Of a stretch of 33,997 nucleotides of DNA, positions 1,697-33,997 are shown piece after piece; positions within the stretch are counted from its first letter, which is position 1; each line of letters begins with the position of its first letter. The translations under genes were made by a program, and so were the position numbers. This DNA is from Deltaproteobacteria bacterium. Its GTDB lineage: Bacteria > Desulfobacterota > Desulfobacteria > Desulfobacterales > C00003060. Below the pieces are notes generated by a model that saw only the letters and a list, made by a program, of their open reading frames with translations, was not told where the DNA came from and searched no databases. The stretch is taken from assembly GCA_003647275.1 (NCBI GenBank), contig QMMN01000024.1, positions 1 through 33,997 on the forward strand, written 5' to 3'.

Positions 1697-3451
<1,755 letters not shown>

Positions 3452-8294: not shown

Positions 8295-10022
8295 ATGATC
8301 AATATCAAGAAAAACAAAACCGAACTGGCCGTTCTGGTCCTTCTAGGAATCATGGCCCTGACCTGTTTGCTCAGCCTCAGGGTCAAATCCCCAACGGTGG
8401 ACGAATTTGCTCATTTGCCGGCGGGTTATTACTACTGGAAGACTGGAGATTTCTCGCTCTACGGGAAGAATCCTCCCTTGATCAAACTTCTGTGTGCACT
8501 TCCCCTTTTGGCCATGAACATTTCCATGGATCCCGGTCTATCCTATGCGGATGCTGGTGATTGGCGTCCTTGGGTTTTTGGCACGCATTTCATGAGGGAA
8601 AATGCCGCTGCCTACGATATGATATTTTTCATTGGCAGACTTCCGGTCGTCCTTCTATCCCTGCTTCTTGGGTGGTATGTGTTTCGCTGGGCCCGTGAAC
8701 TGTACGGCCCAAAAGGGGGACTCCTTAGCCTTATCCTCTATACCTTCAGTCCCAACATACTGGCTCATTCTCGCTTGGTCACGACGGACGTCGGGTGTAC
8801 CTGTTTTATGTTCATGGCTGTGTACTATTATTGGCGGTCCTTTCAGCCTCAGAGACACAGGGCATGGATCGGCGCTGGCATATGTTTCGGTCTTGCCCTC
8901 CTGAGCAAGTTTACAGCCCTGTTACTCATTCCTGTCTTTGGTTTGCTGTTGCTTTTCTGGGCTTGGCGCGGAAAACAGGGCGAAAGTGCAGCAGCCGTTC
9001 CTGCGTTCAATCATAGGCTGCCGGTTTTTATCCAGCGTCTTTGGGACGGGGGTGTGCGCCTTTTCTGGATCATGGTGGTAGCCATTTTTATCACCAACCT
9101 TGGCTATGGCTTTCAGGGGAGCTTTAAGACATTGAGATCGATACCCCATGAGAGCCGATTTTACAAAAGACTGGCAGGGTCTCCTTTGAACAGCATCCCA
9201 ATTCCCCTTCCAGCAGCATATCTTCAGGGCCTTGACCAACAGAAGCTCGATGCAGAAAGAGGCGTTTTCTTGAACTATCTCAGGGGCAGGCTTTCAAACA
9301 GGGGATGGTGGTACTATTTTTTTTATGCATTTTTTGTTAAGACCCCGATCCCGTTGCATATCGGAATTATGGTCTCTATTGGGTGGGCATTCAGGCGTCG
9401 TCGGGTGACCGAGGCAGAAGCCTTTTTGATCCTTCCCGTCCTTGTGGTGCTCATCGTTTTTTCTTTTTTTAACCAGATCAATGTGGGATTACGGTATGTC
9501 CTGCCGATATTTCCCTTCCTCTTTGTCTGGCTCGGCCAACTCACCCAGCTGAATTTTCACAAGACTGTGCTACGCTGGAGCGCAGGGATCATTCTGGTTG
9601 GATATGTGGTTTCTTCTGTTTTGATTTTCCCGGATTACCTCGCCTATTTTAATGCCTTGGCAGGTGGGCCCGGCAAGGGTTACCGTCACCTTCTGGACTC
9701 AAATTTGGACTGGGGTCAGGACTTGAAAAGGTTGAAAAACTACATGGACAAGGCTGGGATAAAGGAGCTTGGGCTGGCCTATTTTGGCCATGTGGACCCA
9801 GAGATCTATGGGATCCATTACCATCTTATCGGAGAACACCCGGAGTCTGGAGACATTGCCGTGAGTGCCAATTACTTGTACGGCTTGCCATACGTTGTTA
9901 CCTATGGACATCGTCCCGTGTCAATTAGGCCTGGTACTTTCAACTGGCTTCACGCCTATCAGCCGAGGGCCCACATCGGCCATACCATCTTTGTCTATTC
10001 TATGATCCCGGAACAGAACTGA
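8295..10022 (+). CDS. GT-C membrane glycosyltransferase (PMT/ArnT-like)
   Basis: Integral membrane protein of 575 aa with about ten or more hydrophobic segments. After TM1 comes SPTVDEFAHLPAGYYYWKTG; the Asp-Glu pair matches the acidic motif of the first outer loop of PMT/ArnT enzymes, which binds metal and sugar phosphate. The GKNPPLIKLL segment is also typical. The C-terminal part has an outer loop with DSNLDWGQDLKRLKNYM, often seen in bacterial glycosyltransferase 39-type proteins. It likely takes a sugar from the polyprenyl-phosphate donor made by the upstream GT2; the acceptor is unknown. It follows element B, and its 3' end overlaps the convergent DUF3426 gene by 23 bp. Confidence 0.87.
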   Translation: MINIKKNKTELAVLVLLGIMALTCLLSLRVKSPTVDEFAHLPAGYYYWKTGDFSLYGKNPPLIKLLCALPLLAMNISMDPGLSYADAGDWRPWVFGTHFMRENAAAYDMIFFIGRLPVVLLSLLLGWYVFRWARELYGPKGGLLSLILYTFSPNILAHSRLVTTDVGCTCFMFMAVYYYWRSFQPQRHRAWIGAGICFGLALLSKFTALLLIPVFGLLLLFWAWRGKQGESAAAVPAFNHRLPVFIQRLWDGGVRLFWIMVVAIFITNLGYGFQGSFKTLRSIPHESRFYKRLAGSPLNSIPIPLPAAYLQGLDQQKLDAERGVFLNYLRGRLSNRGWWYYFFYAFFVKTPIPLHIGIMVSIGWAFRRRRVTEAEAFLILPVLVVLIVFSFFNQINVGLRYVLPIFPFLFVWLGQLTQLNFHKTVLRWSAGIILVGYVVSSVLIFPDYLAYFNALAGGPGKGYRHLLDSNLDWGQDLKRLKNYMDKAGIKELGLAYFGHVDPEIYGIHYHLIGEHPESGDIAVSANYLYGLPYVVTYGHRPVSIRPGTFNWLHAYQPRAHIGHTIFVYSMIPEQN

Positions 10023-11583
10023 CCACTTCAACACTAAATTCTTCTAAATCCTGAGGCAGATCAGAGAATACAATCATAAATGGAATCACCTTACCAGAAG
10101 GGACCTCGAAATTAGATTTTTGATCTCCGAATCTGTTGGCCAATCTTTTGTTGATGGCCGATTTATCCATGACTTCCAAGTCATTTTCTGACAGGACATT
10201 GCCACAGTATGCGGTTTTCTTTTGAACGGCTTTGCCCTCCTTTGAATAGAGAACCCCTTTTACCGTGATGAAGTTCCGAGCTTCAGGATAATCGTTTCTG
10301 ACTTTTCCGCTGATGACAAACAGCCTGCCGGCTGCCTTGTTTTCAACAAATTTCGTACTTATTAACTGATCCATAAGGGATATATGATAGCTGCCGGGAT
10401 CAATGGTCACGGACTCTGGTGCACCTGTCAGGGATTCCAGAAATGGTATCTTGACATCAAAAGCTTTCAAAAGACTGTAGGCACCAAAAGCCCCTCCCCC
10501 CAAAAGAACCAATATCAATGCACCCATGACCGGCATACTAAGGCGCTTCCGTGCCCCTGGTTCTTTCTCGGTCGTTGGGGGGGGCATGGGTTTTTCCTCG
10601 GCCTCTTTCGACTCCCCTTCTAATTCCTCTTTTGGCTCTTCCTGCTCTTCCTGCGCCTCGACCTCCTCAAGCGTGGCGCCCCTTTCCTCACCTTCAGGTG
10701 TTTCTTCTGGAGCCATCTCTTCTGTCTTGTCAGGTGTTTCTTCTACAGCGGTTTCTTGTTCCGGCCCGAGGTCTTCTAGGGCGATTTCTTCCTCTACAGC
10801 GATTTCCTCCTCATCAGGCAGTTTTTCCTCATCAGGTGTGGGTTCCTCAGTAGGGGTTTCTTCTTCCAGGCCGAAGTCTTCCAGGGAGATTTCTTCTTCG
10901 GCTTGAGTCTGTTCTGGCGCTGTTGTTTCTTCGGGCGAGGTTTCTTCTTCCAGGCTAAGATCTTCTAAGGTAATTTCTTCCTCATCAGGGGTTTCCTCAT
11001 CAGGCAGTTTTTTCTCATCAGGTGTGGGTTCCTCAGTAGGGGTTTCTTCTTCCAGGCCGAAGTCTTCCAGGGAGATTTCTTCTTCAGCTTGAGTCTGTTC
11101 TGGCGCTGTTGTTTCTTCGGGCGAGGTTTCTTCTTCCAGGCTAAGGTCTTCTAAGGTAATTTCTTCCTCATCAGGGGTTTCCTCATCAGGCAGTTTTTCC
11201 TCATCAGGTATGGGTTCCTCAGTAGGGGTTTCTTCTTCCAGGCCGAGGTCTTCTAAGGTAATTTCTTCCTCATCAGCGGGTTCTTCTTTAGACTCGGACA
11301 GATCAAAATCCAGAACCTCTTCAGGGGCTTCTTCTGCAACGCCTCCAGGCTCTTCAGCAGCTTGGTCGACTTCTGGTTCTGGAGAAGACACCGGGCCTTC
11401 TTCTGATTCGGGGCGATCAGCAGGTGCCTCTTCAAGTTCGAGTGCAGGCTCTTCCTCTGGAAGGGGTTTATAGACAGTAAACATATGGTGGCACTTGGAA
11501 CATTTGACCTTGGAGCCTGATTCCTTGATCACCTTTTCATCCAGATTGTACCTTGTCTTGCAGTTTTCGCAAGTTACGATCAT
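10000..11583 (-). CDS. MJ0042 zinc-ribbon, acidic-repeat, single-TM protein with DUF3426
   Basis: Protein of 527 aa in four parts. Residues 1-40 are an MJ0042-type zinc ribbon (Cys 5, 8, 28, 31). About 45-345 is very rich in Glu with repeated blocks such as EEITLEDLGLEEETPTEE. About 350-372 is one TM helix (MGALILVLLGGGAFGAYSLL). About 395-525 is a DUF3426 domain. Homologues often sit next to hpt or dnaJ genes in this group of bacteria; the function is unknown. The zinc ribbon should be cytosolic and DUF3426 periplasmic. The acidic part contains direct 186-bp repeats, so copy number may vary. It is last in a minus-strand run dnaJ-hpt-this gene with 10- and 16-bp gaps. Confidence 0.85.
   Translation of the reverse strand: MIVTCENCKTRYNLDEKVIKESGSKVKCSKCHHMFTVYKPLPEEEPALELEEAPADRPESEEGPVSSPEPEVDQAAEEPGGVAEEAPEEVLDFDLSESKEEPADEEEITLEDLGLEEETPTEEPIPDEEKLPDEETPDEEEITLEDLSLEEETSPEETTAPEQTQAEEEISLEDFGLEEETPTEEPTPDEKKLPDEETPDEEEITLEDLSLEEETSPEETTAPEQTQAEEEISLEDFGLEEETPTEEPTPDEEKLPDEEEIAVEEEIALEDLGPEQETAVEETPDKTEEMAPEETPEGEERGATLEEVEAQEEQEEPKEELEGESKEAEEKPMPPPTTEKEPGARKRLSMPVMGALILVLLGGGAFGAYSLLKAFDVKIPFLESLTGAPESVTIDPGSYHISLMDQLISTKFVENKAAGRLFVISGKVRNDYPEARNFITVKGVLYSKEGKAVQKKTAYCGNVLSENDLEVMDKSAINKRLANRFGDQKSNFEVPSGKVIPFMIVFSDLPQDLEEFSVEVVSSVPGS
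10801..11270 (-). repeat. Direct tandem repeat, 186-bp period, coding
   Basis: The block that starts with GGCAGTTTTT recurs at 10817, 11003 and 11189, exactly 186 bp (62 codons) apart, with only scattered changes. It codes for the Glu-rich segment of the DUF3426 protein, giving about two and a half copies. Confidence 0.85.
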
Positions 11584-21563: not shown

Positions 21564-24320
21564 ATGAAGGGTTTTACTGCGAGAATTCCCCCCTTTTTCC
21601 TTTTTCATCTTGCCCTTTGTGGTTTCATATTCGCTGGGTGTGCCACGGTAGCTACGAAAAAGACCGCAATTACTCCTGAGATCACCCATTTGTTCAAGGG
21701 GACCTACAAGGTCGATCCATATCTAAAGACCCACATGCCCAGGACCGTGGCTGTCCTTCCTTTCGTGGATCAGTCTAGGGGCAAGCAGGGCGTTGAGCCC
21801 GTTCGCAGGGCATTTTACAACCATTTTAGTGTTCTCCCATACACAGATGTGGAACTTTACCGCGTGGATCGCCTTTTGGGGAAGGCAGGACTCACCGATC
21901 CTGAGGCCATTGCAGATACCCCACCCCAGAGACTGGGGGAGATCCTGAAGGTAGATGCTGTGATATTGGGCAATGTATCAAATTTTGACAAATTTTATGC
22001 CTTGCTCTATTCACAGGTGGCCGTGGGGGCAGAAATCAAGATGTTTGACACCAAGAGTGGACACATCCTGTGGAGCGGCAAACATGTGGCCCGGAAGCAC
22101 CAGGGGGGAGTTTCGGTTTCCCCGGTCGGGATCGTTGCCACCATTGTGGCAACTGCTATGAATATCCGGGATGTTCAACTCCTCAGGGCCTGCGATGATC
22201 TGTTCCGGGATATGGTCAAAACAATCCCGTCACCCACGATAGCCGAGGCGACCCGGCCTCCCATAATAACCCTTCTCACCCAGGACACAAAAGGCCTTCC
22301 CAAGAAGGCCGGAGATGAAATCAGGGTGGTTATTGAGGGAGATCCCAACATGCAGGCCAGCTTTGATATAGGGACCTTCAAGAAGGGGATTGACATGGTA
22401 GAGGTGGAGCCGGGTGGCTACCTGGGGACTTACAGGGTGGTGCCCGGAGACAACGTGGATGAGGCCATTGTTACAGGATATCTAACCGATGATTCAGGGA
22501 ACACGACGAGCTGGATCGATGCGGTAGGTACTGTGACGATCGATACCACCCCGCCAGAAAGTCCCAAGGGGCTGAGGGCCGTGGGCCGTGACGGCTTTGT
22601 GATTTTGGACTGGGCCAAGAATTCTGAAGCAGATCTTGCCGGCTACCGTATTTACCGAAGTAAAACACCCTTAACGGGGTTTGAGGCCCTGGGCAACACA
22701 GAGTTGAACCGCTATAAAGATAAAGATCTTTCCAACTTACAGAAGTATTACTACAAGGTATCGGCCAAGGATCGGGCCGGCAATGAAAGCAAAAGGACCG
22801 ATAGCGTGGTTGGGATGGCTGTAGCGCCCGGGCCCACGCCAGTTTCAGGGGCAGTTATAGAGGATACGACCTGGTATGCCGGGGCAAGCCCGTATGTGAT
22901 TGAAGGGCCCGTGACGATTAAGGATAAAGCCACGTTGACGATTGAGCCGGGCACGATTATTCAATCTAAGGGTAGCGGACTTCGGGTCGAGGGCCGTTTG
23001 CTTGCGCGTGGGGACCAGACACATCTTATTATCTTTGGTGGCCAGGATCATACCCCTTGGGAAGGGATATCTTTTTACAATGTCAAGGGTAAGGAAAATT
23101 GGGTTCGTTTCTGTCGAATCCGTGATGCCAATATAGCCATTTCCTGCCGCTCATCTTCGCCTGTGATAAGGGATTGCGAATTTACGGACAACACGGACGG
23201 CATCAGGGTGATGGACACATTTTCAGAACCTGAGATATGCGACAATACCATTCATAGGAATACTGGAACTGGGCTGATAGTGGTGGAAGGGGCGAGACCC
23301 ACGGTTGAAGGAAATATTGTCCGGGAAAACAGCAAAGGAGGGATCTTGATTGAAGGTGCAGCACCTACGGTCCTCCATAACACCATCGTTCAAAACGCAG
23401 GAGGGGGCATTCGTGTGGTTAAGAGCCAGGCCGAGATCAAGGAAAACAATATTTATGACAATGAACCCTATAATATGGTGGGTGCCATGTCAGGGGAGCC
23501 TGTCTGCGCGAAGGACAACTGGTGGGGAACCAAGAACGGACTTGATATCCTTTCACGAATAAAGGGGCGTATTGACATTGGCAGCATCCTGGATGGCCCC
23601 TATTCTGTGGGAAAGAGCATCGAATTACCCATTCTTCAGGGGCCATTGGGCGGCGAGATAAGGACTGATGGCTTTCTCACACTTTCTAACAGCCCATATA
23701 CTGTTGAAAAGGATTTAGTCATTGATGGTGGCGCCACGCTATACATTGAGCCGGGCGTCAGGCTGATGTTCGATCAAAACACTTCGGTCACTGTGAAAGA
23801 CGGAGGCATGGTGGCCCGGGGAAAAAGAGAGCAACCTATTGTTTTTACGTCGTCAGGTGCCTCACCTTCGGCTGGAGATTATTTGAGCGTGGTCCGTTTT
23901 ATTGCCCGGACCAAGGTCAATAGTTTTTTTGAATACTGTGTGATGGAACATGCTACCATTGCAGTTGACATCCACTTTGGGTCGCCTGATATATCTTATT
24001 GTTACATTGCGAACAACGCGCAAAGCGCCATTAAATGTCGAAACGATGCTGCACCCAAGATTTTTTATAACACGATTACAGGGAACCTGGGCACCGGCGG
24101 GATTGAGTGTGTGGGGATGTCAAGGCCAAAGATCAATCACAACAATATTGTCGACAATGCCGTAGGCATCCAGGCCTTTTCCACGATTTTGATAGATGGT
24201 CGATACAATTGGTGGGGTAAGGCCCAACCGGATAGTAGCCTAATTTGGGGAGAAGAGAACATTCAATTCAAGCCCTGGCTTGAGGCCCCGGAAGAGAAGG
24301 CATTTACAATTGATGATTGA
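21564..24320 (+). CDS. Lipoprotein: GNA1162-like domain, FN3 and right-handed beta-helix
   Basis: Large secreted lipoprotein of 918 aa from the ATG at 21564, chosen because a signal peptide with lipobox FAGC (Cys 26) starts there and GAGG lies upstream. Residues about 50-230 (RTVAVLPFVDQS to LFRDMVKTIPSP) resemble the DUF799/GNA1162 lipoprotein domain, related to the CsgG/TolB-N fold. About 330-420 is an FN3 module (SPKGLRAVGRDGFVILDW). The rest is a right-handed parallel beta-helix in two blocks with pectate-lyase/NosD-like repeats (IRDCEFTDNTDGIRV, NNWWG motifs). Likely outer membrane or surface, possibly glycan-binding or cleaving; no catalytic residues assigned. The stop lies in a GATGATTGAT satellite, before element C. 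Confidence 0.8.
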   Translation: MKGFTARIPPFFLFHLALCGFIFAGCATVATKKTAITPEITHLFKGTYKVDPYLKTHMPRTVAVLPFVDQSRGKQGVEPVRRAFYNHFSVLPYTDVELYRVDRLLGKAGLTDPEAIADTPPQRLGEILKVDAVILGNVSNFDKFYALLYSQVAVGAEIKMFDTKSGHILWSGKHVARKHQGGVSVSPVGIVATIVATAMNIRDVQLLRACDDLFRDMVKTIPSPTIAEATRPPIITLLTQDTKGLPKKAGDEIRVVIEGDPNMQASFDIGTFKKGIDMVEVEPGGYLGTYRVVPGDNVDEAIVTGYLTDDSGNTTSWIDAVGTVTIDTTPPESPKGLRAVGRDGFVILDWAKNSEADLAGYRIYRSKTPLTGFEALGNTELNRYKDKDLSNLQKYYYKVSAKDRAGNESKRTDSVVGMAVAPGPTPVSGAVIEDTTWYAGASPYVIEGPVTIKDKATLTIEPGTIIQSKGSGLRVEGRLLARGDQTHLIIFGGQDHTPWEGISFYNVKGKENWVRFCRIRDANIAISCRSSSPVIRDCEFTDNTDGIRVMDTFSEPEICDNTIHRNTGTGLIVVEGARPTVEGNIVRENSKGGILIEGAAPTVLHNTIVQNAGGGIRVVKSQAEIKENNIYDNEPYNMVGAMSGEPVCAKDNWWGTKNGLDILSRIKGRIDIGSILDGPYSVGKSIELPILQGPLGGEIRTDGFLTLSNSPYTVEKDLVIDGGATLYIEPGVRLMFDQNTSVTVKDGGMVARGKREQPIVFTSSGASPSAGDYLSVVRFIARTKVNSFFEYCVMEHATIAVDIHFGSPDISYCYIANNAQSAIKCRNDAAPKIFYNTITGNLGTGGIECVGMSRPKINHNNIVDNAVGIQAFSTILIDGRYNWWGKAQPDSSLIWGEENIQFKPWLEAPEEKAFTIDD

Positions 24321-24336
24321 TGATTGACAGTGGAGA

Positions 24337-24464
24337 AGTGAGCTAAAGTGTCTAAAGTGCCTAAAGTGAGCTAAAGTTGAGGACTTGAAGAAACTTTTTG
24401 TAAAGAATGGTTTTATTCCTTTAACTTTAGGCACTTTAGCTCACTTTAGTACACTTTAGGCACT
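24337..24464. repeat. IVS-like element C, non-coding
   Basis: Left arm 24337-24378 (units AGTGAGCTAA, AGTGTCTAA, AGTGCCTAA, AGTGAGCTAA, AGTT); right arm 24423-24464 with the same kinds of unit inverted. The 44-bp interior (GAGGACTTGAAGAAACTTTT...) is almost identical to that of element F. TTATTGACCAATGACC follows the right arm. Confidence 0.8.
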
Positions 24465-24501
24465 CCCTTATTGACCAATGACCAATGACTATTGACGAAC
24501 C

Positions 24502-25629
24502 ATGAATAGACGGCATTTCTTGAAATACATAGCCAGGAGCATCCTTGGCACTTCAGGGCTTTGGCTGTCCAGCAGGGGTATGGCGTGGGGAAAGTCAGCT
24601 TTTGACTATGCCCTGGAGGGACAAAACCTGATTGCGGCCAAGCGCTTTGCCGAGGCCATCGAGGTGCTGAAAGAAGCCATCCGTTTGGACTCGAAGAGCG
24701 ACTGGGCCCATGGCCTGCTCGGGCGTGCATACCACGGTCTTGACCAGAAAGCCGAAGCAGTGGCGGCCTTTAGGGAGGCGGTTCGGCTCAATCCCGCTGA
24801 CACCTATTCTCGGATGATGATTGAGATCATTACCCAGAAGCCGATACCCAGACTGAAGAGACCAGCACGTCCCCTTAGCCCTTTGGAAAAGGCGGCCAAG
24901 GTCGAGGAAGAAGTCATGCTCAACCAGCTTAGTCCTGAGGGGGGCCTTGCCTACCAGGTCAAACGTGTCGTGCTTGACCCTGGTCACGGCGGATTTGATT
25001 CAGGTGCAATTGGACCCACAGGCCTGAAGGAAAAGGAGGTAACCCTTGATCTTGCCTTGCGTCTCAGCCGAAGAATCTCTGAAAAGGGAAATATCAAATG
25101 CTTTTTGACACGCACCGGGGACTACTATATCCCCCTCAGTGAGCGTACGGTTATTGCCAACCAATACCAGGCTGATCTCTTTGTCAGCATCCACATCAAT
25201 GCCAATGAGAACCCAAAAGCACACGGGTGTGAGACCTACTATTGTTCGGAGAGGGCCTCCAGCAAGGAGGCGGCTCGGGTTGCAGCCTTTGAAAATGCAG
25301 TACTCAAGTACGATGAACCCTTTAAGAAAAGGCCTGGCTACATCGATATCGAGGAGATCCTTTTCAACTTTGAACGAAGGCTTTATTGGGAGGAGAGCGG
25401 CAAATTTGCCGGGACCTTCCAGGACTATTTTCAACAAACCCTGCCTTTTAAGAGTCGGGGCGTTCATTCAGCCAATTTTTTTGTGCTTCGGCGTGCAAAG
25501 ATGCCGTCGATCCTACTTGAGACCGGGTTTGTTTCAAATCGCGATGAAGAGGCCAAGCTGAAAAAGGCCTCGGTTCGAGAGGAGATCGCCGCTGCCGTGG
25601 TAAGGGGATTGTTGCATGGACGTGCATGA
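24502..25629 (+). CDS. N-acetylmuramoyl-L-alanine amidase (Amidase_3) with TPRs and a Tat-type signal
   Basis: Zinc amidase (375 aa) that cuts the bond between MurNAc and L-Ala of peptidoglycan. The N-terminus MNRRHFLK plus a hydrophobic stretch looks like a twin-arginine signal. Residues about 33-105 hold two TPR units; about 155-372 is the AmiC-like domain with zinc ligands in DPGHGG (His162), KEKEV (Glu179) and SIHINAN (His231), and the catalytic Glu in ILLETGF near 350. All key residues are present, so it should be active in the periplasm. No Shine-Dalgarno; the ATG follows an ATTGACGAACC satellite. It overlaps the next TPR gene by 14 bp. Confidence 0.92.
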   Translation: MNRRHFLKYIARSILGTSGLWLSSRGMAWGKSAFDYALEGQNLIAAKRFAEAIEVLKEAIRLDSKSDWAHGLLGRAYHGLDQKAEAVAAFREAVRLNPADTYSRMMIEIITQKPIPRLKRPARPLSPLEKAAKVEEEVMLNQLSPEGGLAYQVKRVVLDPGHGGFDSGAIGPTGLKEKEVTLDLALRLSRRISEKGNIKCFLTRTGDYYIPLSERTVIANQYQADLFVSIHINANENPKAHGCETYYCSERASSKEAARVAAFENAVLKYDEPFKKRPGYIDIEEILFNFERRLYWEESGKFAGTFQDYFQQTLPFKSRGVHSANFFVLRRAKMPSILLETGFVSNRDEEAKLKKASVREEIAAAVVRGLLHGRA

Positions 25630-26437
25630 CCTCATCTTTCAAGGAGCAGACTACCACTACAAGGGGGATCTCGACAAGGCCATTGCCAAGTTCCAAGCAG
25701 CCGTTAGAGTTGAACCCCAAAACGAGTATGCCCACAACCAGCTAGGCATCCTTTATGCCAAAAAAGAGCACTTTGATGCGGCCTTTGGTGAATTTCAGAA
25801 GGTCGTCCAGATCGATAGACGTAACACCTATGCTCTGTTGTGGCTTGGGATTCTTTACCTGAAACAAGGAAACCTTAACCAGGGTTTTGAAAAATTTCAG
25901 AGAATCATTGAAATCGACCCGGCCAATGCCGATGCTTATTATTTTTTGGGAGCGGTCTACAATTTTAGGCATAATACGGCTAGGGCGATCGAATATTTGA
26001 AAAAGGCCAGGGATGCTGATTCCGCCGAACCTGATACCCATTACCGACTGGCCCAGGCCTTTCATAACCTGGACATGACCGCCAATGCACTCTTGGAGTA
26101 TCAGCGTACATTGGCCCTGAAGCCGTCCCATACCAAGGCCATCAACGGCATCGGTTGGATCTATTACAACCGTGGCGACCGGGATGCAGCCATCTGCCAA
26201 TGGAAAAAGACCCTCAAGATAAATCCTAAGGACCGCGATGCGATCTTCAATCTGGCCAAGGCCTATAATGATCTGGCCTGGGAGGCCAGGAATCATAACA
26301 AGCTTGAGGCGGCAATTTTGTACTGGAAAAAGACCCTTGCGGTTGATCCTAAGAATAAGGCAGCCTTGCACTATCTCAAGAAATACGAGAATCGCGAGCC
26401 GGAAATCGGAAATCGGTTACGCAGCTCGTTACGGTAA
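25616..26437 (+). CDS. TPR repeat protein
   Basis: Protein of 273 aa made almost wholly of about seven TPR units (for example GDLDKAIAKFQAAVRVEPQNEY and its repeats). It has no signal peptide or membrane segment, so it is predicted to be a cytosolic scaffold. The start lies inside the 3' end of the amidase gene (14-bp overlap), which argues for translational coupling and a shared task in cell wall or envelope work. The specific partner cannot be inferred. Confidence 0.85.
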   Translation: MDVHDLIFQGADYHYKGDLDKAIAKFQAAVRVEPQNEYAHNQLGILYAKKEHFDAAFGEFQKVVQIDRRNTYALLWLGILYLKQGNLNQGFEKFQRIIEIDPANADAYYFLGAVYNFRHNTARAIEYLKKARDADSAEPDTHYRLAQAFHNLDMTANALLEYQRTLALKPSHTKAINGIGWIYYNRGDRDAAICQWKKTLKINPKDRDAIFNLAKAYNDLAWEARNHNKLEAAILYWKKTLAVDPKNKAALHYLKKYENREPEIGNRLRSSLR

Positions 26438-26607
26438 CCGGCAGCCGTCAGACGTAACGAGCTGTGAATAATGAACAACGAATAACGGGCAACACAGATT
26501 AAGACAGATTACACAGATGCTGCAGATTAAGGGCGTAGAAGTAGTTAGCACAGATTAATCAGCGTAATCAGCGTTAACGAATAACGAATAATGAAGAGGA
26601 GGGTATT
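26438..26607. repeat. Satellite block: ACAGATTA and AATAACGA words
   Basis: Near 26490-26580 there are repeated ACAGATTA and AATCAGCGT words, followed by AACGAATAACGAATAATG up to the ribosome site GAGGAGGG of the next gene. It has no ORF. Confidence 0.55.
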
Positions 26608-27495
26608 ATGAAAAAAAGAAAATTGGTCGTCATTGTTGCTGTTGCTCTGATGCTAATCCTCCCAGCAACAGAAGGCTTTGTGGCAGAATGGCAGGAGCTT
26701 TTGGAGCCAATTGGCCCCCATGGAAGCGTCAACTGGTCCCAGGGGATCATTACAGCCACGGGGATTGGGGCGCCGCCTGAAAAGTACTATGGGAAGCCCC
26801 AGGCCCGTCCCATGGCCCTTAGGGCAGCTCAGTTGGATGCTTACCGTAACCTGCTTGAAGTAACCAAAGGTGTAAGGGTCGACTCCACCACCCTGGTAAA
26901 AGACTACATGGTTGAAAGTGATGTGATCCGGTCACAGGTGAGTGGCATGGTTAAAGGGGCCCAGATCATCAAGAAGGAATATCTCTCAGATGGCACCGTG
27001 GAGGTGACTCTGGCGATAAAAATCCATGGGGGGTTTGCTCAACTGATACTTCCCCCGGACATTAAACAGGTTTCAGAGATAAAGACCATTTCCCCGTCAA
27101 CGCCAAAAGAAGAAAAGGGAGAAAAGACCTCTGGGTCTCCGGCGATTACACCGACCATCTATACCGGCCTTGTGGTGGATGCACGTGGGCTCGGCGGCCG
27201 GCCAGCCATGTCACCGAAGATTTTAGATGAAAATGGGCAGGAAGTTTATGGCTCGGCCTATGTAAGCCGAGAATTTGCGGTTCAGCAGGGTATGACCGGG
27301 TATGCCAGAGACCTGAGTGCAGCCCAGAGTAATCCGAGAGTGACCAATGATCCCTTGACGGTCAAGGGCCTGAGGACCGAAGGACAGGGGCGGTGCGATT
27401 TCGTCATTAGTAATGCGGATGCAGAAAAGATTCGAAGTGCTTCTGAAAATCTTTCGTTTTTGAAAAAGTGCCGGGTCATGGTTGTTCTGGATTGA
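26608..27495 (+). CDS. LPP20-like secreted protein
   Basis: Protein of 295 aa with a signal peptide (MKKRKLVVIVAVALMLILPA) but no lipobox Cys. Residues about 45-150 (ATGIGAPP, then ALRAAQLDAYRNLLEVTKGVRVDSTT) match the LPP20 pattern of lipoproteins such as Helicobacter LPP20 and Vibrio FlgP; the rest (about 180-295) includes YTGLVVDARGLGGRPAMSPKI, a feature of a conserved secreted family in Gram-negative bacteria. Likely periplasmic or outer-membrane associated; function unknown. GAGGAGGG lies before the ATG. The stop (GATTGA) is followed by element D. Confidence 0.75.
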   Translation: MKKRKLVVIVAVALMLILPATEGFVAEWQELLEPIGPHGSVNWSQGIITATGIGAPPEKYYGKPQARPMALRAAQLDAYRNLLEVTKGVRVDSTTLVKDYMVESDVIRSQVSGMVKGAQIIKKEYLSDGTVEVTLAIKIHGGFAQLILPPDIKQVSEIKTISPSTPKEEKGEKTSGSPAITPTIYTGLVVDARGLGGRPAMSPKILDENGQEVYGSAYVSREFAVQQGMTGYARDLSAAQSNPRVTNDPLTVKGLRTEGQGRCDFVISNADAEKIRSASENLSFLKKCRVMVVLD

Positions 27496-27511
27496 TCGGT
27501 GCTCGTGGAGA

Positions 27512-27652
27512 AGTGATCTAAAGTGCCTAAAGTGTCTAAAGTGAGCTAAAGTTAATGTGTACGCCTTCGGGTGGCCAGTCTTAAAAACAGGTTGCGTTGA
27601 AAGCGCATTCCTTAACTTTAGGCACTTTCAACTTTAGCTCACTTTAGACACT
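27512..27652. repeat. IVS-like element D, non-coding
   Basis: Left arm 27512-27553 (AGTGATCTAA, AGTGCCTAA, AGTGTCTAA, AGTGAGCTAA, AGTT) and right arm 27614-27652 in inverted sense enclose a 60-bp interior unlike C or F. ATTATTGACAAATAACG follows the right arm. Confidence 0.8.
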
Positions 27653-27715
27653 CCATTATTGACAAATAACGTATAACGAATAACGGATAACGAACCACAG
27701 GAGGTATGGATTATT

Positions 27716-28891
27716 ATGAAGATCAAGCATAACATAATGATCCCGATATTAGTAGGGATCTGGCTGACCACCATCTTTTCTCTACAGGGGTGTGCTCCTA
27801 AGGTGCGTCCTTCAGAAAGTGTCCTGGATACGCCTGAACATCACGTGCACAGCGGTATGAAACTCCTCAGGTTGGGCAAATACGATGATGCCCTACGTGA
27901 ATTTGAATTGGCCAAGGAGCTTGACCCAAAATTTTCACGGGCCTACGTTGGCTCTGGTTTGGTTTTTGGAAAGAAGGGTGATTTCAAACAGGGACTCGAA
28001 GATATGAAAAAGGGTATTGGCCTGGCCGAGACCAAAGAGGAAAAGGTTGATGCCAATGTGGGGCTGATACAATTGTATTTGTTAGGGAAGGAGTCTGCTC
28101 ACAAGGATTGGCTTAAGAAGGCCCAAGTGGCCTATCAAAGTGCCATCAACTTATTACCTGGATCATCTGCTGCTCACTACTATATGGGAGAGACATATAA
28201 AGAGGCTTTGAACTTTGAGAAGGCAAGCCAGCTTTTCAAGAAGGTTTTGGACATTAACGACGGCTATGTGGTTGAGGCAAATGATGCGTGGAAACTCATC
28301 CAGAAGATACAGAGAGCAGCACCCGGCACCAAGATTGGAAAAAAGATTGCGCTTGTTGATCAGATCACCCGGGCAGATATTGCAGCGCTTTTTGTCCAAG
28401 AACTCAAGATAGATGATCTCTTTGCAAAAAAGACGAAGGACTTTGATACGAGCTTTAAAAGTCCAGAGAAGGGGTTTGTGACCGAACGGGTGGTCAAGAC
28501 ACCAACAGCACTCGATATTGCAGATCACGTGCTAAAGACAGATATTGAGGCTGTGATTGCGCTGGGCATTAAAGGCATTGAACCGTATCCGGATCACACC
28601 TTCAAGCCCGATCAGAAGATTGCCCGGGCCGAGTATGCCATGATGATCGAAGACATCCTGATCAGGGTCACAGGGGATGAAAAACTCGCCACAAAATTCA
28701 TCGGCAGCCCCTCACCCTTTCCGGATTTAAGGGATGATTTACCGTACTATAATGCTGTGATGGTCTGCACCACACGAGGGATCATGAAGGCCAAGGACCT
28801 GACCACTGGCGAGTTTGATCCGATGGGGTCAGTTTCAGGGGCAGATGCCTTGCTTATCATACGGAAGCTAGAACCTCTGATAAATCGGTAA
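27716..28891 (+). CDS. TPR and S-layer-homology lipoprotein
   Basis: Lipoprotein of 391 aa: signal peptide with lipobox LQGC (Cys 26), TPR units at about 45-190 (LRLGKYDDALREFELAKELD), then a region ending in SLH-type motifs (IEPYPDHTFKPDQKIARAEYAMMI, here split: YPDHTFKP and IARAEYA; and a second FPDLRDDLPYYNAV). SLH domains bind cell-wall polymers or peptidoglycan. In a Gram-negative, an outer-membrane lipoprotein with SLH would link outer membrane and peptidoglycan. AGGAGG lies 11 bp before the ATG. Element D precedes it and element E follows. Confidence 0.82.
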   Translation: MKIKHNIMIPILVGIWLTTIFSLQGCAPKVRPSESVLDTPEHHVHSGMKLLRLGKYDDALREFELAKELDPKFSRAYVGSGLVFGKKGDFKQGLEDMKKGIGLAETKEEKVDANVGLIQLYLLGKESAHKDWLKKAQVAYQSAINLLPGSSAAHYYMGETYKEALNFEKASQLFKKVLDINDGYVVEANDAWKLIQKIQRAAPGTKIGKKIALVDQITRADIAALFVQELKIDDLFAKKTKDFDTSFKSPEKGFVTERVVKTPTALDIADHVLKTDIEAVIALGIKGIEPYPDHTFKPDQKIARAEYAMMIEDILIRVTGDEKLATKFIGSPSPFPDLRDDLPYYNAVMVCTTRGIMKAKDLTTGEFDPMGSVSGADALLIIRKLEPLINR

Positions 28892-28902
28892 TCGTGAAAG
28901 AA

Positions 28903-29030
28903 AGTGAGCTAAAGTGCCTAAAATGCCTAAAGTGAGCTAAAGTTGTGGAACTTGCCTTCGGCAAGAACAATTAAAATGGATAAAACTCCTTAACCTTAGG
29001 CACTTTCAACTTTAGTTCACTTTAGGCACT
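28903..29030. repeat. IVS-like element E, non-coding
   Basis: Left arm 28903-28944, right arm 28992-29030, same AGTGAGCTAA/AGTGCCTAA units. The interior holds its own hairpin CTTGCCTTCGGCAAG. Its right arm shares the odd unit GGCACTTTCAACTTTAG with element D. Confidence 0.8.
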
Positions 29031-29101
29031 TGTTTGAGCTAGATTTGATCTTACAAAATTTAAACTATCCCTTTTTGGTTCCGGTTTATCCGAGTTAGGT
29101 G

Positions 29102-30415
29102 ATGACAGACTTTAGAAAACATCTTATTTTGATTTTGCTCTTGCTGGGGTGTGCCAGTGGATTCAATGGGGCGTGGGCCCAGGATGCCCTCCGGCCCGAA
29201 GAGTCTGCCCCCCCAACCGACGCCCTCTCTCCGAACCAGCCCCCGGCCCAGAGGCTCTCTGAGCTTGCGTCCGGGTCGGAGGCTGGTCAAGCGGCCAGTG
29301 AGGATAGAACCATAGACGTCATTGGTACGGGCATCATTTATGGGGATGATGTGGCCAGAGCCAGGGATGAGGCGATTGCAGACGCCTTGCGGGGCGTGGT
29401 TGAAGAGGCGGTCGGCCTTGTGATCTCCCCAGCGTCGGTTGTGCAAAACTTTCAACTGTTGAGCGAACGGCTCTATGATCAGGCAGAGGCATTTATTCAC
29501 GACTACAAGGTCCTGACGGAGTCAAAATCTGGCCGACATTATCGGGTGGTGGTGCGAGCCACGATATTTATGAGTACGATTCGGGATAAACTTCAAAGTA
29601 TTGGTATCCTCATGATCCACAAGGAGATGCCGACGATCATGTTCTTTTTGTCCGAGCAGAACATTGGCGAACCTTCACCTCAATACTGGTGGGGACAAGG
29701 TTCTCCTAGTGCATATCGGTCGGTTACCGAAAATACGCTATCAGAGTACATGCGTAACAAGGATTTTATCATTGTGGACCGGACAGTCCGAGGCCCGGAT
29801 ATTGAGTTTGGGCCGGAATATATGGGGCCTGAGTTGAGCGATGACGCTGCGGTAATGCTGGGGAAGGCGTTTGGTGCTGATGTTGTTATAGCTGGAAAGG
29901 CCTTGGCCCGCTATAGCGGGAATGTCTTCCGTGGGGATATGCAGCCCATTCAGGCTACGGTGTCTGTACGTGCTATCAGGACAGACAGCGGGATGGCCAT
30001 TGCTTCATCTCAGGAAACCAGGGCCACGGTTCATTCGGATGGGAGGGTTGGTGGCACGGAAGCCCTCATCCTTTCTGCTTCAAGGGTGGCGCAGGATCTC
30101 ACAAGGCAAATCGTGGCCAACTGGCGCAAGGAGGCGAGACAGCCTGTTGTGGTGGAATTGGTTGTAAGGGGTATTAAAGAGTATGCCGATTTTGTCCGGT
30201 TCAGGGCGCATATTAGAAATGAAGTTCAGGGCGTCAAAAACATCTATCTGCGCAGTATCAGGGCTGGTGAGGCGAAAATGGATTTGGAATTTATGGGGAA
30301 TGCCGGGATTTTGGCAGATGAGTTGATGTTGCAGCGTTTTGAAAATTTGACAGTGAACATCCTTGAAGTTTCTGAAGAGGCGATAAAGCTTGAGCTGATA
30401 CCCCGCGACGATTGA
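29102..30415 (+). CDS. FlgT-like secreted protein
   Basis: Protein of 437 aa with a signal peptide: either a lipobox (LLGC, Cys 17) or cleavage after AWA. Residues about 65-160 (DVIGTGIIYGDDVARARDEAIADALRGVVEEAVG in outline) match the FlgT N-terminal/LPP20 pattern; about 175-340 resembles the FlgT middle domain with CsgG/TolB-N fold (VMLGKAFGADVVIAGKA); a further domain of the same type ends the protein. FlgT supports flagellar outer rings in Vibrio, but no flagellar genes are seen here. The ATG at 29102 has only a weak ribosome site. The stop lies in a GACGATTGAC satellite. Confidence 0.75.
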   Translation: MTDFRKHLILILLLLGCASGFNGAWAQDALRPEESAPPTDALSPNQPPAQRLSELASGSEAGQAASEDRTIDVIGTGIIYGDDVARARDEAIADALRGVVEEAVGLVISPASVVQNFQLLSERLYDQAEAFIHDYKVLTESKSGRHYRVVVRATIFMSTIRDKLQSIGILMIHKEMPTIMFFLSEQNIGEPSPQYWWGQGSPSAYRSVTENTLSEYMRNKDFIIVDRTVRGPDIEFGPEYMGPELSDDAAVMLGKAFGADVVIAGKALARYSGNVFRGDMQPIQATVSVRAIRTDSGMAIASSQETRATVHSDGRVGGTEALILSASRVAQDLTRQIVANWRKEARQPVVVELVVRGIKEYADFVRFRAHIRNEVQGVKNIYLRSIRAGEAKMDLEFMGNAGILADELMLQRFENLTVNILEVSEEAIKLELIPRDD

Positions 30416-30445
30416 CGATTGACGATTGACGATTGACCGCGGAGA
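30416..30445. repeat. GACGATT satellite at the stop codon of the FlgT-like gene
   Basis: GACGATT repeats in tandem from about 30408 to 30437, starting within the last codons (Asp-Asp-stop) of the upstream gene and ending just before element F. Confidence 0.75.
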
Positions 30446-30574
30446 AGTGAGCTAAAGTGAACTAAAGTGCCTAAAGTGAGCTAAAGTTGAGGACTTGAAG
30501 AAACTTTTTGTAAAAAATGGTTTTATTCCTTTAACTTTAGGCACTTTAGTTCACTTTAGCTCACTTTAGGCACT
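30446..30574. repeat. IVS-like element F, non-coding, near-identical to C
   Basis: Left arm 30446-30488 (AGTGAGCTAA, AGTGAACTAA, AGTGCCTAA, AGTGAGCTAA, AGTT); right arm 30533-30574. The outer three left units can pair without mismatch with the inner three right units, giving a 29-bp stem. The interior differs from C by one base. GTTATTGACCAATGAC follows. Confidence 0.85.
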
Positions 30575-30618
30575 CCGTTATTGACCAATGACAAATAACC
30601 AGCAACCGACAACGAGCA

Positions 30619-31386
30619 ATGAAACATAAATCTACTGTAATTCTCTTTGCCCTGGTTACACTGATTCTTCTCTCTGTGGCCGCAACAGGCCTTGCTGATG
30701 AACCTGAACTCGTTGAGGTGGAAGGTGGAGAGGCCGAGGTGACTCTGGTTGAGGGCAAAGCAGAACTCTTTCGCAAAAAAGAGGCATTAAGACAAACCCT
30801 GAGTGAAGGGGATTTGCTGCGCCACGGAGATTGCGTGACCACTGGAGATAGGACCAGAATCGAGTTGGCTATGCCCGATGGGAGCTTTCTGCGTTTTGAC
30901 GAGAAGACAACCTTTGAGTTGATTTCAGCAGGTTATGATCAAGAAGCAAAGCAGCGGGATATTGAGGTCCGCTTGGCGTTGGGCAAGACATGGGCAAAGG
31001 TTGCCGAGCTGGTGGGGGGCCGCGGAAGGTTTCAGGTTTCAGCCAAAAATGCAATTGCGGGTGTTCGGGGAACTACCTACCGAATGGACGTGAATCCGGA
31101 CTCTTCTGTTGTTGTCAAGGTTTACTGGGGACAAATCCATGTGAGCCCCCCCCCGAAAAGCATCAAACAGTCTGCGAGGGTTTCCAAACCAAAGAAGGTA
31201 GAAGGCCCTTATCCGGTTGAGGGCCCACATCCTGTTACACGGCAAGAATGGACCTATATTATCCGGGCCATGCACCAGATTGTTATCCGGCCGGACGGGA
31301 CGGCCTTAAAACCCTTTCGTTTTGATCCCAAGGTGGATGCTGATGACTGGGTCCGGTGGAACCAGATGCGCGACCGGATGCGATAG
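30619..31386 (+). CDS. FecR-domain secreted protein
   Basis: Protein of 255 aa with a signal peptide (cleavage after about residue 27, TGLADE) and a FecR domain at about 45-165 (GDCVTTGDRTRIELAMPDGS, LRFDEKTTFELIS, GVRGTTYRMDVNPDSSVVVKV). FecR domains are periplasmic beta domains, usually linked to sigma factors; here no sigma gene is near, so it is probably a stand-alone envelope protein. No Shine-Dalgarno; the ATG follows AACCGACAACGAGCA. pgsA starts 14 bp after its stop. Confidence 0.85.
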   Translation: MKHKSTVILFALVTLILLSVAATGLADEPELVEVEGGEAEVTLVEGKAELFRKKEALRQTLSEGDLLRHGDCVTTGDRTRIELAMPDGSFLRFDEKTTFELISAGYDQEAKQRDIEVRLALGKTWAKVAELVGGRGRFQVSAKNAIAGVRGTTYRMDVNPDSSVVVKVYWGQIHVSPPPKSIKQSARVSKPKKVEGPYPVEGPHPVTRQEWTYIIRAMHQIVIRPDGTALKPFRFDPKVDADDWVRWNQMRDRMR

Positions 31387-31400
31387 TGGTGAAGCATTCA

Positions 31401-31940
31401 ATGCCCATAAACCTTCCCAATACATTGACGCTTCTTCGCATCCTGTTGACGCCACTCTTTGCCATTTTTTTGATCAGACACCTCTTAGATTATGCCTTGT
31501 TGGTCTTTGCAATCGCTGCAGTAAGCGATGGTGTGGATGGGCTTGTGGCCCGTCTGTTTCGTCAGAAGACCACGCTGGGGACCTATTTGGATCCGGCTGC
31601 CGACAAGCTATTATTGGCAACCGCGTTTGTGACCTTAGGGGTTAAGGAACTGATTCCGAGTTGGCTGGTTGTCATTGTTATCACACGGGATGTTCTGATC
31701 CTGTTTGGCGTTGCTCTTTTTATTATAACAGGTCACAAGTTTGAACCGAGGCCATCCATCCTTAGCAAAATAACGACCGTGGCACAGGTGATTAGTGTAC
31801 TTTCGGTTCTGGTGGGCTGCCAGGTGCCGAAAATAGCTCAGGTTCAATTGCCGCTGTTCTGGTTTGCGGCCGGTATGACCATGGTTTCTGGATTTCAATA
31901 TATCTATAGAGGTCTGAATATTCTCCAGGAAGAATCGTGA
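31401..31940 (+). CDS. pgsA: CDP-diacylglycerol--glycerol-3-phosphate 3-phosphatidyltransferase
   Basis: Integral inner-membrane enzyme that makes phosphatidylglycerol phosphate. The CDP-alcohol phosphatidyltransferase motif D-x2-DG-x2-AR-x8-G-x3-D-x3-D is complete: SDGVDGLVARLF, then GTYLDPAADK. About five TM helices; N-terminus NLPNTLTLLRILLTPLF. I chose the ATG at 31401 (179 aa); upstream in-frame starts overlap the fecR gene and add non-conserved residues. It follows fecR by 14 bp and is probably cotranscribed with it. Confidence 0.93.
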   Translation: MPINLPNTLTLLRILLTPLFAIFLIRHLLDYALLVFAIAAVSDGVDGLVARLFRQKTTLGTYLDPAADKLLLATAFVTLGVKELIPSWLVVIVITRDVLILFGVALFIITGHKFEPRPSILSKITTVAQVISVLSVLVGCQVPKIAQVQLPLFWFAAGMTMVSGFQYIYRGLNILQEES

Positions 31941-31988
31941 CAATGGCGGCTGTATCTGGTTTGTCTGAGTGAGGACCGCCTATTTTTC

Positions 31989-32017
31989 TTGACACTGTTT
32001 GCAATCCTTGATAGCGA
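31989..32017 (+). promoter_or_regulatory. Possible tRNA-Val promoter
   Basis: A perfect TTGACA lies at 31989-31994; a weak -10 (TAGCGA, 17 bp later) ends 11 bases before the tRNA. The -10 is poor, so this is tentative. Confidence 0.35.
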
Positions 32018-32028
32018 AAAAAACATAC

Positions 32029-32103
32029 AGGCACGTAGCTCAGGGGGAGAGCGCTACCCTGACACGGTAGAGGTCACGAGTTCAAATCTCGTCGTGCCTA
32101 CCA
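32029..32103 (+). tRNA. tRNA-Val (anticodon GAC)
   Basis: Complete cloverleaf: acceptor AGGCACG/CGTGCCT, D arm GCTCAGGGGGAGAGC, anticodon arm CTACC-CTGACAC-GGTAG with GAC at the anticodon, T arm ACGAG-TTCAAAT-CTCGT, discriminator A and encoded CCA (32101-32103). Confidence 0.96.
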
Positions 32104-32113
32104 GCAGAATCAA

Positions 32114-32146
32114 GGGGTTGTGGCATCAGCCACAAGCCTTTTTTCG
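32114..32146 (+). terminator. Terminator after tRNA-Val
   Basis: TTGTGGC and GCCACAA form a 7-bp stem (extended by GG/CC past one mismatch) around ATCA, followed by a run of six T. Confidence 0.8.
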
Positions 32147-32334
32147 TTTTGGTCTCTGTTTGTTTCAAAAACCGCATTTTCCAACCTTCAAGCTGCCTCT
32201 TGATTCCTCGGTCTTATCAACAGGCATATACGTTCAGGGTGACAGTAGGACTTGAACGCCCTAACTAACGCTAAATGAACTTGATACGCTCCTTTCTACA
32301 TCACCCTATCCCGTCGGCCTTTCAGCATCTCTTC

Positions 32335-32604
32335 GAGACCTTTGAAAAACCCCTTTTCACTCCTATTTATATGAACTTTTTGACCCATGCACGGGCTTGC
32401 TTACTAAATCCCAGCACGGAGTGAAGCTTTGCGCTCAAACTCGGCCTAACGGCCTCAAACAGTTCAGGATTTGCCCACTAAAGTGGGCCGCTTGCCCCGT
32501 TAAATTTCCCGAAGGGAACCCTATTTAACGGGGTGAACTTCGCCCGGATGGGTACCCCAAAAAGTTCATAATGGCCGCTCAAAGGGGTTATGCAAAGATC
32601 TCTC
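32335..32604. repeat. Large hairpin element, second copy
   Basis: The ends are about 50-bp imperfect inverted repeats: GAGACCTTTG...TATGAACTTTTTG (32335-32382) against CAAAAAGTTCATA...AAAGATCTCTC (32559-32604). Inside lie the core shared with 16559-16631 (AGCACGGAGTG ... CCTCAAACAGTT, 32413-32464), a perfect dyad GCCCACT-AA-AGTGGGC (32473-32488), and CCCCGTTAAAT/ATTTAACGGGG (32495-32533). There is no convincing ORF. The flanking parts of the 756-bp gap (32147-32334 and 32605-32758) show no gene or recognised RNA. Confidence 0.65.
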
Positions 32605-32758
32605 TTAAGGGGGATGATGGTCAATATACTTGTGACCTGACCGCGCAGCTCAATGCCTGTCTCAAAGCAGCACCTATCTTCCAAGGGGTACTGATATTTA
32701 CGCCCTGGTTTTGCTGGTCGGATAACGCAAAGCTACCATATATTGTGATGACTTTTCC

Positions 32759-32788
32759 TTGACAAATAAGTTCATCTTTTTCTATGTT
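32759..32788 (+). promoter_or_regulatory. Promoter for the TPR/CsgG-like lipoprotein
   Basis: TTGACA (32759-32764) and TATGTT (32783-32788) are 18 bp apart, about 70 bp before the ATG at 32860, which has AAAGGAGGAAG as ribosome site. Confidence 0.55.
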
Positions 32789-32859
32789 ATTCCTACCAAA
32801 AGGCTCTGATTATCTTCGGTTTTATTCCCCCCTGCACCCCCACTGAAAGGAGGAAGACC

Positions 32860-33997
32860 ATGTTAAAAAAGGAGTCCGTTATTTTGGGAGTCTTATGCCT
32901 GGGGCTTGTATTTTTGTCCGGTTGTAGCCTTATGAAGGCTGAAATGAAGCTGAGCCTACAGAGATACGATGAGGCCATACCGCTTTTTAAGGAGTATCTT
33001 GCTGATAAGCCCGACTCAGTTGAGGCAAGGAGCAGACTGGGTTTCGCCTGCTTAAAAACTGGCCGCTTGGACGAAGCCATTGCAGAATTTAAGACAGTAC
33101 TTAAGGCTGAACCCGGAGAACCTTACTCCGTGCTGTATTTGGGACTGGCTTATTTGAACAAAGGTGAGCTCGGTAAAACCATTGAAGTATGGCAGGGTTA
33201 CAGGGACAAGAAGAAGCCACTGGTTGAAGAGGAAATCAAGCGCCAGTTGACCCTGCTGCGAATTGCTGAAAGCCAGCGCCTGGCCAAAAAGGCCTTGATG
33301 GAAGAAGAAAAGCTCAAGGCCGTCAAGCCGGAGGCCAATACGATTGCGGTTTGTTACTATCAGGACCTTTCCCCGGACAAGAGCCTGCGGGCCTTCCAGA
33401 AAGGCCTGGCAGCCATGGTAATAACGGATTTGTCCAAGATTAAGTCCATTAAAGTCGTCGAGCGCTTGCGGCTACAGGCCCTTTTGGAGGAAATGAAGCT
33501 CGGTCAGACCGGTATCGTGGACGAGCGTACCGCGCCCAGGGTGGGCAGGTTGCTGGGGGCTGAAAATCTTATTGTGGGAAACTTGTTGGCAGGTAGCATT
33601 GAGGTAAACACTTCCGTTGTGGGGAACATAAATGGTACGGCATCGGTCTCCGTGGAAAAAGAGAAATTTTACGAATTACCTGGCGTCATCGTGCGGGATG
33701 TGGCCAAGATCCTGGGTATTGACTTAACCCCCGAAGAAGTTAAGGCGATTGGTGTGCCGCATACCACTGTCTATAAGGCCTTTATCTACTTCGGCAAAGC
33801 CCTGGACGCCCTGGATGCGGGCAAATGGCAAGAGGCCAAGAACCTGTTCGATATGGCCTTGAAGGAAGATCCTAAATTCGCTCTGGCCGGAGAAGGGAGT
33901 GATTCTTGTCCCGGAGCTGACTCTCCGGATATTTCAGGGCTTAGTCGTATGGCACCATCTACAGTCGAGGCCGCCATTAGTGCAGCCCGGGCTGCAC
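32860..33997 (+). CDS. TPR and CsgG-like lipoprotein, 3' end outside the window
   Basis: Open to the right edge (379 codons seen). Signal peptide with lipobox LSGC (Cys 22). TPR units at about 28-125 (RYDEAIPLFKEYLADKPDSV, GRLDEAIAEFKTVLKAEPGE). About 155-290 is a CsgG/TolB-N-like domain: TIAVCYYQDLSPDKSLRAFQ, IKVVERLRLQALLEEMKLGQ, TAPRVGRLLGAENLIVGNLL. Another TPR-like segment follows (FGKALDALDAGKWQEAKNLF). CsgG-type lipoproteins form outer-membrane assemblies; the fusion with TPRs is found in envelope proteins of unknown role. AAAGGAGG lies before the ATG. It is the third CsgG-fold candidate in this region. Confidence 0.85.
   Translation, partial: MLKKESVILGVLCLGLVFLSGCSLMKAEMKLSLQRYDEAIPLFKEYLADKPDSVEARSRLGFACLKTGRLDEAIAEFKTVLKAEPGEPYSVLYLGLAYLNKGELGKTIEVWQGYRDKKKPLVEEEIKRQLTLLRIAESQRLAKKALMEEEKLKAVKPEANTIAVCYYQDLSPDKSLRAFQKGLAAMVITDLSKIKSIKVVERLRLQALLEEMKLGQTGIVDERTAPRVGRLLGAENLIVGNLLAGSIEVNTSVVGNINGTASVSVEKEKFYELPGVIVRDVAKILGIDLTPEEVKAIGVPHTTVYKAFIYFGKALDALDAGKWQEAKNLFDMALKEDPKFALAGEGSDSCPGADSPDISGLSRMAPSTVEAAISAARAA

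Follow-up and report, generated by a model that had tools for sequence, protein, structure and literature searches.

The ring proteins FlgP and FlgT have been studied as parts of the flagellum, and in the FlgP family ring formation correlates with an insertion between the SHS2 helix and strand 2 (PMC12222027). The D1-D2 domain pair of Treponema pallidum Tp0624, which has no known function, is found in nearly 50 proteins that lack the OmpA part (PMC5104382). Relatives of all three proteins are encoded together on a 33,997-nucleotide stretch of DNA, hereafter the window, from a Deltaproteobacteria bacterium of the order Desulfobacterales (contig QMMN01000024.1). The window is a complete contig (C24) of the source genome (G000), a 3.0 Mb draft that is 96% complete. 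The gene set recurs across the phylum, also in genomes without the flagellar gene FlgI. As a conserved module the genes at 21564-31386 are well supported. The favoured reading, the chances of which we judge to be about even, is that they form one functional unit, the products of which make a non-flagellar outer-membrane and periplasmic scaffold that engages remodelled peptidoglycan. No published description of this gene combination was found in the literature searched.

All genes from 21564 to the contig end lie on the + strand. Their families were assigned by a Pfam domain search of the window proteins, and lipoboxes and some motifs were judged by eye. The cluster starts with a 918-amino-acid lipoprotein (GNA, 21564..24320; lipobox FAGC by eye) consisting of a GNA1162-like domain (5.5e-15), a fibronectin-like region and a right-handed beta-helix (Beta_helix, 2.9e-35). 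Then follow a Tat-exported TPR N-acetylmuramoyl-L-alanine amidase (AMI, 24502..25629; Amidase_3 5.3e-54, and TPR), with an RRHFLK motif and the H/E/H/E residues present in the sequence, and a TPR protein (25616..26437; Pfam TPR families) whose gene overlaps that of the amidase. The central genes encode a FlgP/LPP20-type protein (LPP, 26608..27495), a lipoprotein with TPRs and three SLH-like repeats (SLH, 27716..28891; SLH 5.2e-8, and TPR) and a FlgT-like protein (29099..30415; FlgT_N 2e-7). The last is a FecR-domain periplasmic protein (30619..31386; FecR 4.2e-14). In the window genus the order is GNA-AMI-TPR-LPP-SLH-FlgT-FecR-pgsA. A preliminary description, made from the sequence of the window, had listed GNA1162-like, Tat TPR-amidase, TPR/SLH, FlgT-like, FecR and TPR/CsgG-like proteins, and Pfam confirmed these families. 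The list needed amendment: the GNA1162 domain makes up just the N-terminus of a larger protein, the TPR gene at 25616-26437 had been overlooked, and the CsgG-like gene is set apart by pgsA and a tRNA-Val gene.

Conservation of the gene set and its independence from flagella

The loci compared were 80 LPP-bearing loci from named genomes, 20 regions mostly from a FlgT search, and 39 loci around LPP matches in phylum-sampled genomes; neighbouring genes were labelled with profiles built in this analysis. The phylum sample comprised 198 evenly drawn genomes, in which co-occurrence was assessed by Fisher test. LPP is carried by 45 of these, SLH by 39, FlgT by 97 and FlgI by 109. By p-values that ignore shared ancestry, LPP and SLH occur together far too often, in 31 genomes vs. 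8.9 expected (p 3.2e-18), as do LPP and FlgT, in 42 vs. 22 expected (p 1.5e-12). The 31 LPP+SLH genomes span ~18 families. In 27 of them LPP and SLH are no more than ~5 kb apart, and in 23 FlgT lies within ~10 kb of one or the other (distances read by eye from positions). Conservation in relatives was the check named in the preliminary description, and neither the lack of co-occurrence nor the scattering that it had set against its proposal is seen. The clustering is far beyond chance, and it is very probably real and widespread.

In a tally of 87 loci that are anchored on LPP and at least 9 kb long, with some genomes counted twice and contigs broken, the genes found near LPP were SLH (56), GNA-type (41), FlgT (34), FecR (29), CsgG (20), SpoIID (15), amidase (13) and CHASE2 (13). 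The arrangement varies. Desulfonauticus and related loci (L087, L088, L090) have SpoIID ahead of AMI-TPR-LPP-SLH-FlgT'-FecR-pgsA; FlgT' denotes a short, divergent protein without a Pfam match, called FlgT-like by position and resemblance only. Syntrophales show FlgT-CsgG-CsgG/FnIII-small protein-GNA-LPP-mutL-miaA-SLH-valS; another family has mutL-miaA-LPP-SLH-FlgT-CsgG-FecR-pgsA, and distant families have FlgT-GNA1162-CsgG-SLH-LPP. Other Desulfobacterales have LPP-(SLH)-FecR after a CHASE2 cyclase, SpoIID and Crp; the CHASE2, Guanylate_cyc, cNMP_binding and SpoIID domains of relatives were confirmed by Pfam. Three apparent extra partners in Syntrophales (~605, 310 and 885 amino acids) were rejected, being mutL, miaA and valS by eye. 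Although pgsA follows FlgT or FecR in many relatives, the same set stands in three housekeeping contexts (ispB/cimA...pgsA, mutL-miaA...valS and CHASE2-SpoIID...FecR). Because this context changes between lineages while the set stays, the genes appear to be a shared envelope unit rather than passive neighbours.

The preliminary description had placed the cluster "without flagella". This holds for the window, but the genome does have flagellar genes: FlgI lies at G000:C2:107181-108269, within an apparently typical flg run. FlgI is carried by 15 of the 31 LPP+SLH genomes; the other 16 lack it, and several of these are at least 99% complete. LPP is in fact under-represented with FlgI (17 genomes vs. 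24.8 expected, p 0.01), and no flagellar genes were recognised at the compared module loci. The absence of FlgI from about half of the carriers and the lower frequency of LPP in genomes that have it make it unlikely that the module is a flagellar part. The companion statement, "without curli", held: curlin repeats (PF07012) gave no match in the source genome, and a curli system was rejected on this ground. The set in flagella-less genomes is a place to learn what FlgP- and FlgT-type proteins do outside the flagellum.

The FlgP- and FlgT-type proteins

The product of 26608..27495 had been described as LPP20-like. At 23.1 bits its Pfam LPP20 match is under the cut-off of 25.9 bits, but the SHS2-type LPP20 domain is recognisable by profile at 2e-6 to 1e-12 against FlgP chains. 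A profile of 28 LPP relatives matches Vibrio FlgP in the PDB at 2e-6 and chain 9hmf_C at 1.2e-12, and it also matches Tp0624. The AlphaFold2 monomer model (predicted local distance difference test score, pLDDT, 81) is aligned by Foldseek to Tp0624 (5jir, 3.4e-12) over 274 columns, which take in both N-terminal domains; the second domain of LPP is thus Tp0624 D2-like. Weaker matches of the model are to the Campylobacter flagellar scaffold entry 9hmf and to H. pylori Lpp20. The protein has a signal peptide, and no lipobox cysteine is conserved in LPP of the window or in the aligned relatives. In LPP, the stretch that joins the SHS2 helix to strand 2 has its full length, and its alignment with Vibrio and related FlgP chains shows no gaps.

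The FlgT-like protein (FlgT_N, 31.9 bits vs. the Pfam cut-off of 28.8) has the full three-domain FlgT fold. Its model (pLDDT 85) matches Vibrio FlgT at 1.6e-11 and 9.5e-11 over 400-428 columns (8z5n_0, 3w1e) and resembles CsgG and PelC folds too. FlgP-type and full FlgT-type folds, for what the preliminary description had called LPP20-like and FlgT-like proteins, are thus supported by PDB profile matches and Foldseek. In a tree of 47 FlgT sequences, the window protein groups with FlgT of same-order ispB-FlgT-pgsA loci (support 97/99); therefore, within the order FlgT is wider than the module and can be retained without it. Two proteins of the cluster match leptospiral families of NCBIfam, both below the family cut-offs: the FlgT-like protein matches LipL46 (6.6e-12), and the FecR protein matches LipL45 (7.9e-15).

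Partner proteins, neighbouring genes and repeats

The GNA1162-like domain scores 55.9 bits against a cut-off of 25.9 (profile 6-150/185), and its combination with fibronectin-like and beta-helix parts was found again beside LPP in relatives. A comparison of N-termini showed that the TPR protein at 25616-26437 has no apparent signal peptide in the window genus; relatives in other families carry one. The lipobox cysteine of the SLH lipoprotein, Cys26, is invariant across 22 aligned sequences. Its SLH repeats are intact by motif, with conserved TRAD/ARAE motifs. The usual SLH ligand, a pyruvylated wall polymer, is made by the pyruvyl transferase CsaB. This enzyme was not found in the 96% complete draft genome, nor above cut-off in 60 relatives, so that canonical SLH anchoring to this polymer is doubtful; the preliminary description had the SLH protein anchor the proposed assembly.

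Downstream of the FecR gene lie pgsA (31356..31940, likely start 31401; CDP-OH_P_transf 1.1e-30), a housekeeping neighbour that is not proposed as a component, tRNA-Val (32029-32103), ~750 bp of further sequence, and then a gene for a TPR/partial CsgG-like lipoprotein (32860..33996; TPR, and CsgG 2.9e-11) that runs off the contig. The CsgG match is confined to profile positions 23-112 of 210, and the second half of the domain is missing. With half a domain and a gene separated from the rest, a CsgG-type pore is unlikely for 32860-33996. The congener loci L032 and L125 have no counterpart beside pgsA; the gene is therefore left as a doubtful member, its firm membership being unsupported by congeners. 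An outlying locus type with TPR-CsgG, CsgG and FlgT was found twice: in L208 it adjoins another CDP-alcohol transferase gene, and in L207 it is divergent from an LPP-type gene. The source genome has a second CsgG-like/FlgT-like pair (L112, on G000:C66, 9766-11705), and pairs of CsgG and FlgT are seen again at several paralogous loci.

A repeated palindromic element fills most of the ~200-bp gaps between several cluster genes; gene spacing is for this reason no argument against co-transcription. Short AGTGnnCTAA units form inverted arms (window 1697-2161) around a gene for a 23S_rRNA_IVP four-helix-bundle protein (1751-2131, - strand). Copies of the arms that bear no open reading frame lie in the envelope-cluster gaps at 24335-24489, 27510-27670, 28902-29030 and 30444-30599, and 113 partial matches are found genome-wide. 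The element looks like a repeat family with gene-bearing and empty forms. Elsewhere in the window, a group II intron match (Rfam, 48.3 bits) stands at the contig start (12-119), and the open reading frame of a very acidic protein (10000-11583, - strand) contains a 186-nucleotide unit three times in tandem (10808-11365). In the relatives L057 (5290-9885) and L042 (464-4758), a CHASE2 cyclase, a SpoIID/TPR protein, a Crp-type regulator and a DUF4384 protein adjoin the module.

Proposed function of the module and comparison with known systems

In the proposed mechanism, subunits of the FlgP/LPP20 and FlgT types would build a non-flagellar scaffold beneath the outer membrane. Lipoproteins anchored in the outer membrane (the GNA1162/beta-helix and TPR-SLH proteins, and CsgG-like proteins in other lineages) may contact this scaffold and fasten it both to that membrane and to glycan. 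The amidases, together with SpoIID in relatives, make a link to peptidoglycan plausible; these enzymes would trim it at the points of contact between scaffold and wall. The state of the scaffold might be reported by FecR, jointly with the CHASE2 cyclase and the Crp-type regulator that relatives encode next to the module. A broader form of this proposal is tentative, and we would sooner doubt it than adopt it: a ring-based non-flagellar envelope machine, found widely in the phylum and perhaps in spirochaetes too, might have peptidoglycan-cutting enzymes of its own and a CHASE2/cyclic AMP-type sensor, and its ring proteins might share a source with those that flagella took up as FlgP and FlgT.

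Several observations weigh against a scaffold module. The AlphaFold2 monomer of LPP gives short helices, not a beta-hairpin, at the place where FlgP forms rings, and Tp0624, the structure closest to LPP, is monomeric in solution (PMC5104382). FlgT is far wider than the module, occurring in almost half of the sampled genomes (97/198), and in most families of the window order it stands in an ispB-FlgT-pgsA locus that has neither LPP nor SLH. The amidase (13/87 loci) and SpoIID (15/87) are frequent, not constant, partners. The shared ancestry that the co-occurrence p-values leave out counts on the same side.

Some of these facts would also suit peptidoglycan-remodelling regulators that form no ring, in which outer-membrane proteins like LpoB or NlpI reach through the wall and switch enzymes of the amidase or SpoIID type on or off. 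This reading, which we consider possible but rather doubtful, draws on the presence of Amidase_3 and SpoIID genes nearby in a number of lineages, on a weak match of the FlgT profile to LpoB (E 0.08) and a paralogue (L112) at the Pfam LpoB cut-off, and on the NlpI-like character of the TPR lipoproteins. However, many loci with LPP-SLH-FlgT have neither amidase nor SpoIID, and the best fold match of the FlgT-like protein is full-length flagellar FlgT, not LpoB. It is improbable that a surface polymer or protein is exported through a channel whose outer-membrane pore consists of CsgG-like and GNA1162-like lipoproteins and whose collar is FlgP/FlgT. Syntrophales and other families do have CsgG-like lipoproteins within the cluster, and the FlgT model has its CsgG and PelC resemblance, but the half-length, separated CsgG-like gene of the window fits poorly, and the neighbourhoods contain no recurring substrate gene or inner-membrane export component.

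It is quite improbable that unrelated envelope genes merely sit near housekeeping genes with no common function. The frequency of pgsA, mutL, miaA and valS as neighbours speaks for such passive synteny; the persistence of the set in different housekeeping contexts speaks against it, as does the phyletic co-occurrence of LPP and SLH, which is more than a matter of adjacency. A flagellar accessory ring encoded away from the flagellar cluster, which the FlgP-/FlgT-type folds and the flagellar genes of the source genome might suggest, is largely refuted by the distribution of FlgI. With the proposed scaffold, sulfate reducers and syntrophs would have an envelope structure that is apparently undescribed in the literature searched.

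The likenesses to known systems are partial in each case. As in the CsgG and GNA1162-type lipoproteins, the corresponding domains are present and recur beside the module, but the CsgG of the window is half-length, its GNA1162 domain forms one protein with FnIII and beta-helix parts, and the genome lacks curlin repeats. The amidase shares the Amidase_3 catalytic domain and Tat export with AmiA/AmiC, yet has a TPR N-terminus in place of the AMIN domain of AmiC and scores under the equivalog cut-offs. LPP shares with FlgP of the basal disk/H-ring (Campylobacter, Vibrio) the SHS2/LPP20-type domain and an insert of equal length between the helix and the second strand, but it has an extra Tp0624-D2-like domain, no lipobox and no flagellar link. 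FlgT of the Vibrio LPHT-ring is matched at full length in its three-domain fold; identity is 11-13%, and the window type occurs in flagella-less genomes, among envelope genes. Whereas Tp0624 is built as D1-D2-OmpA, LPP matches the D1-D2 pair and is without the OmpA-like D3. The FlgT-like protein matches Leptospira LipL46 over its length and the FecR protein matches LipL45, with scores far under the family cut-offs, and these two window proteins are not lipoproteins. The module thus offers a working context for the relatives of Tp0624, LipL46 and LipL45.

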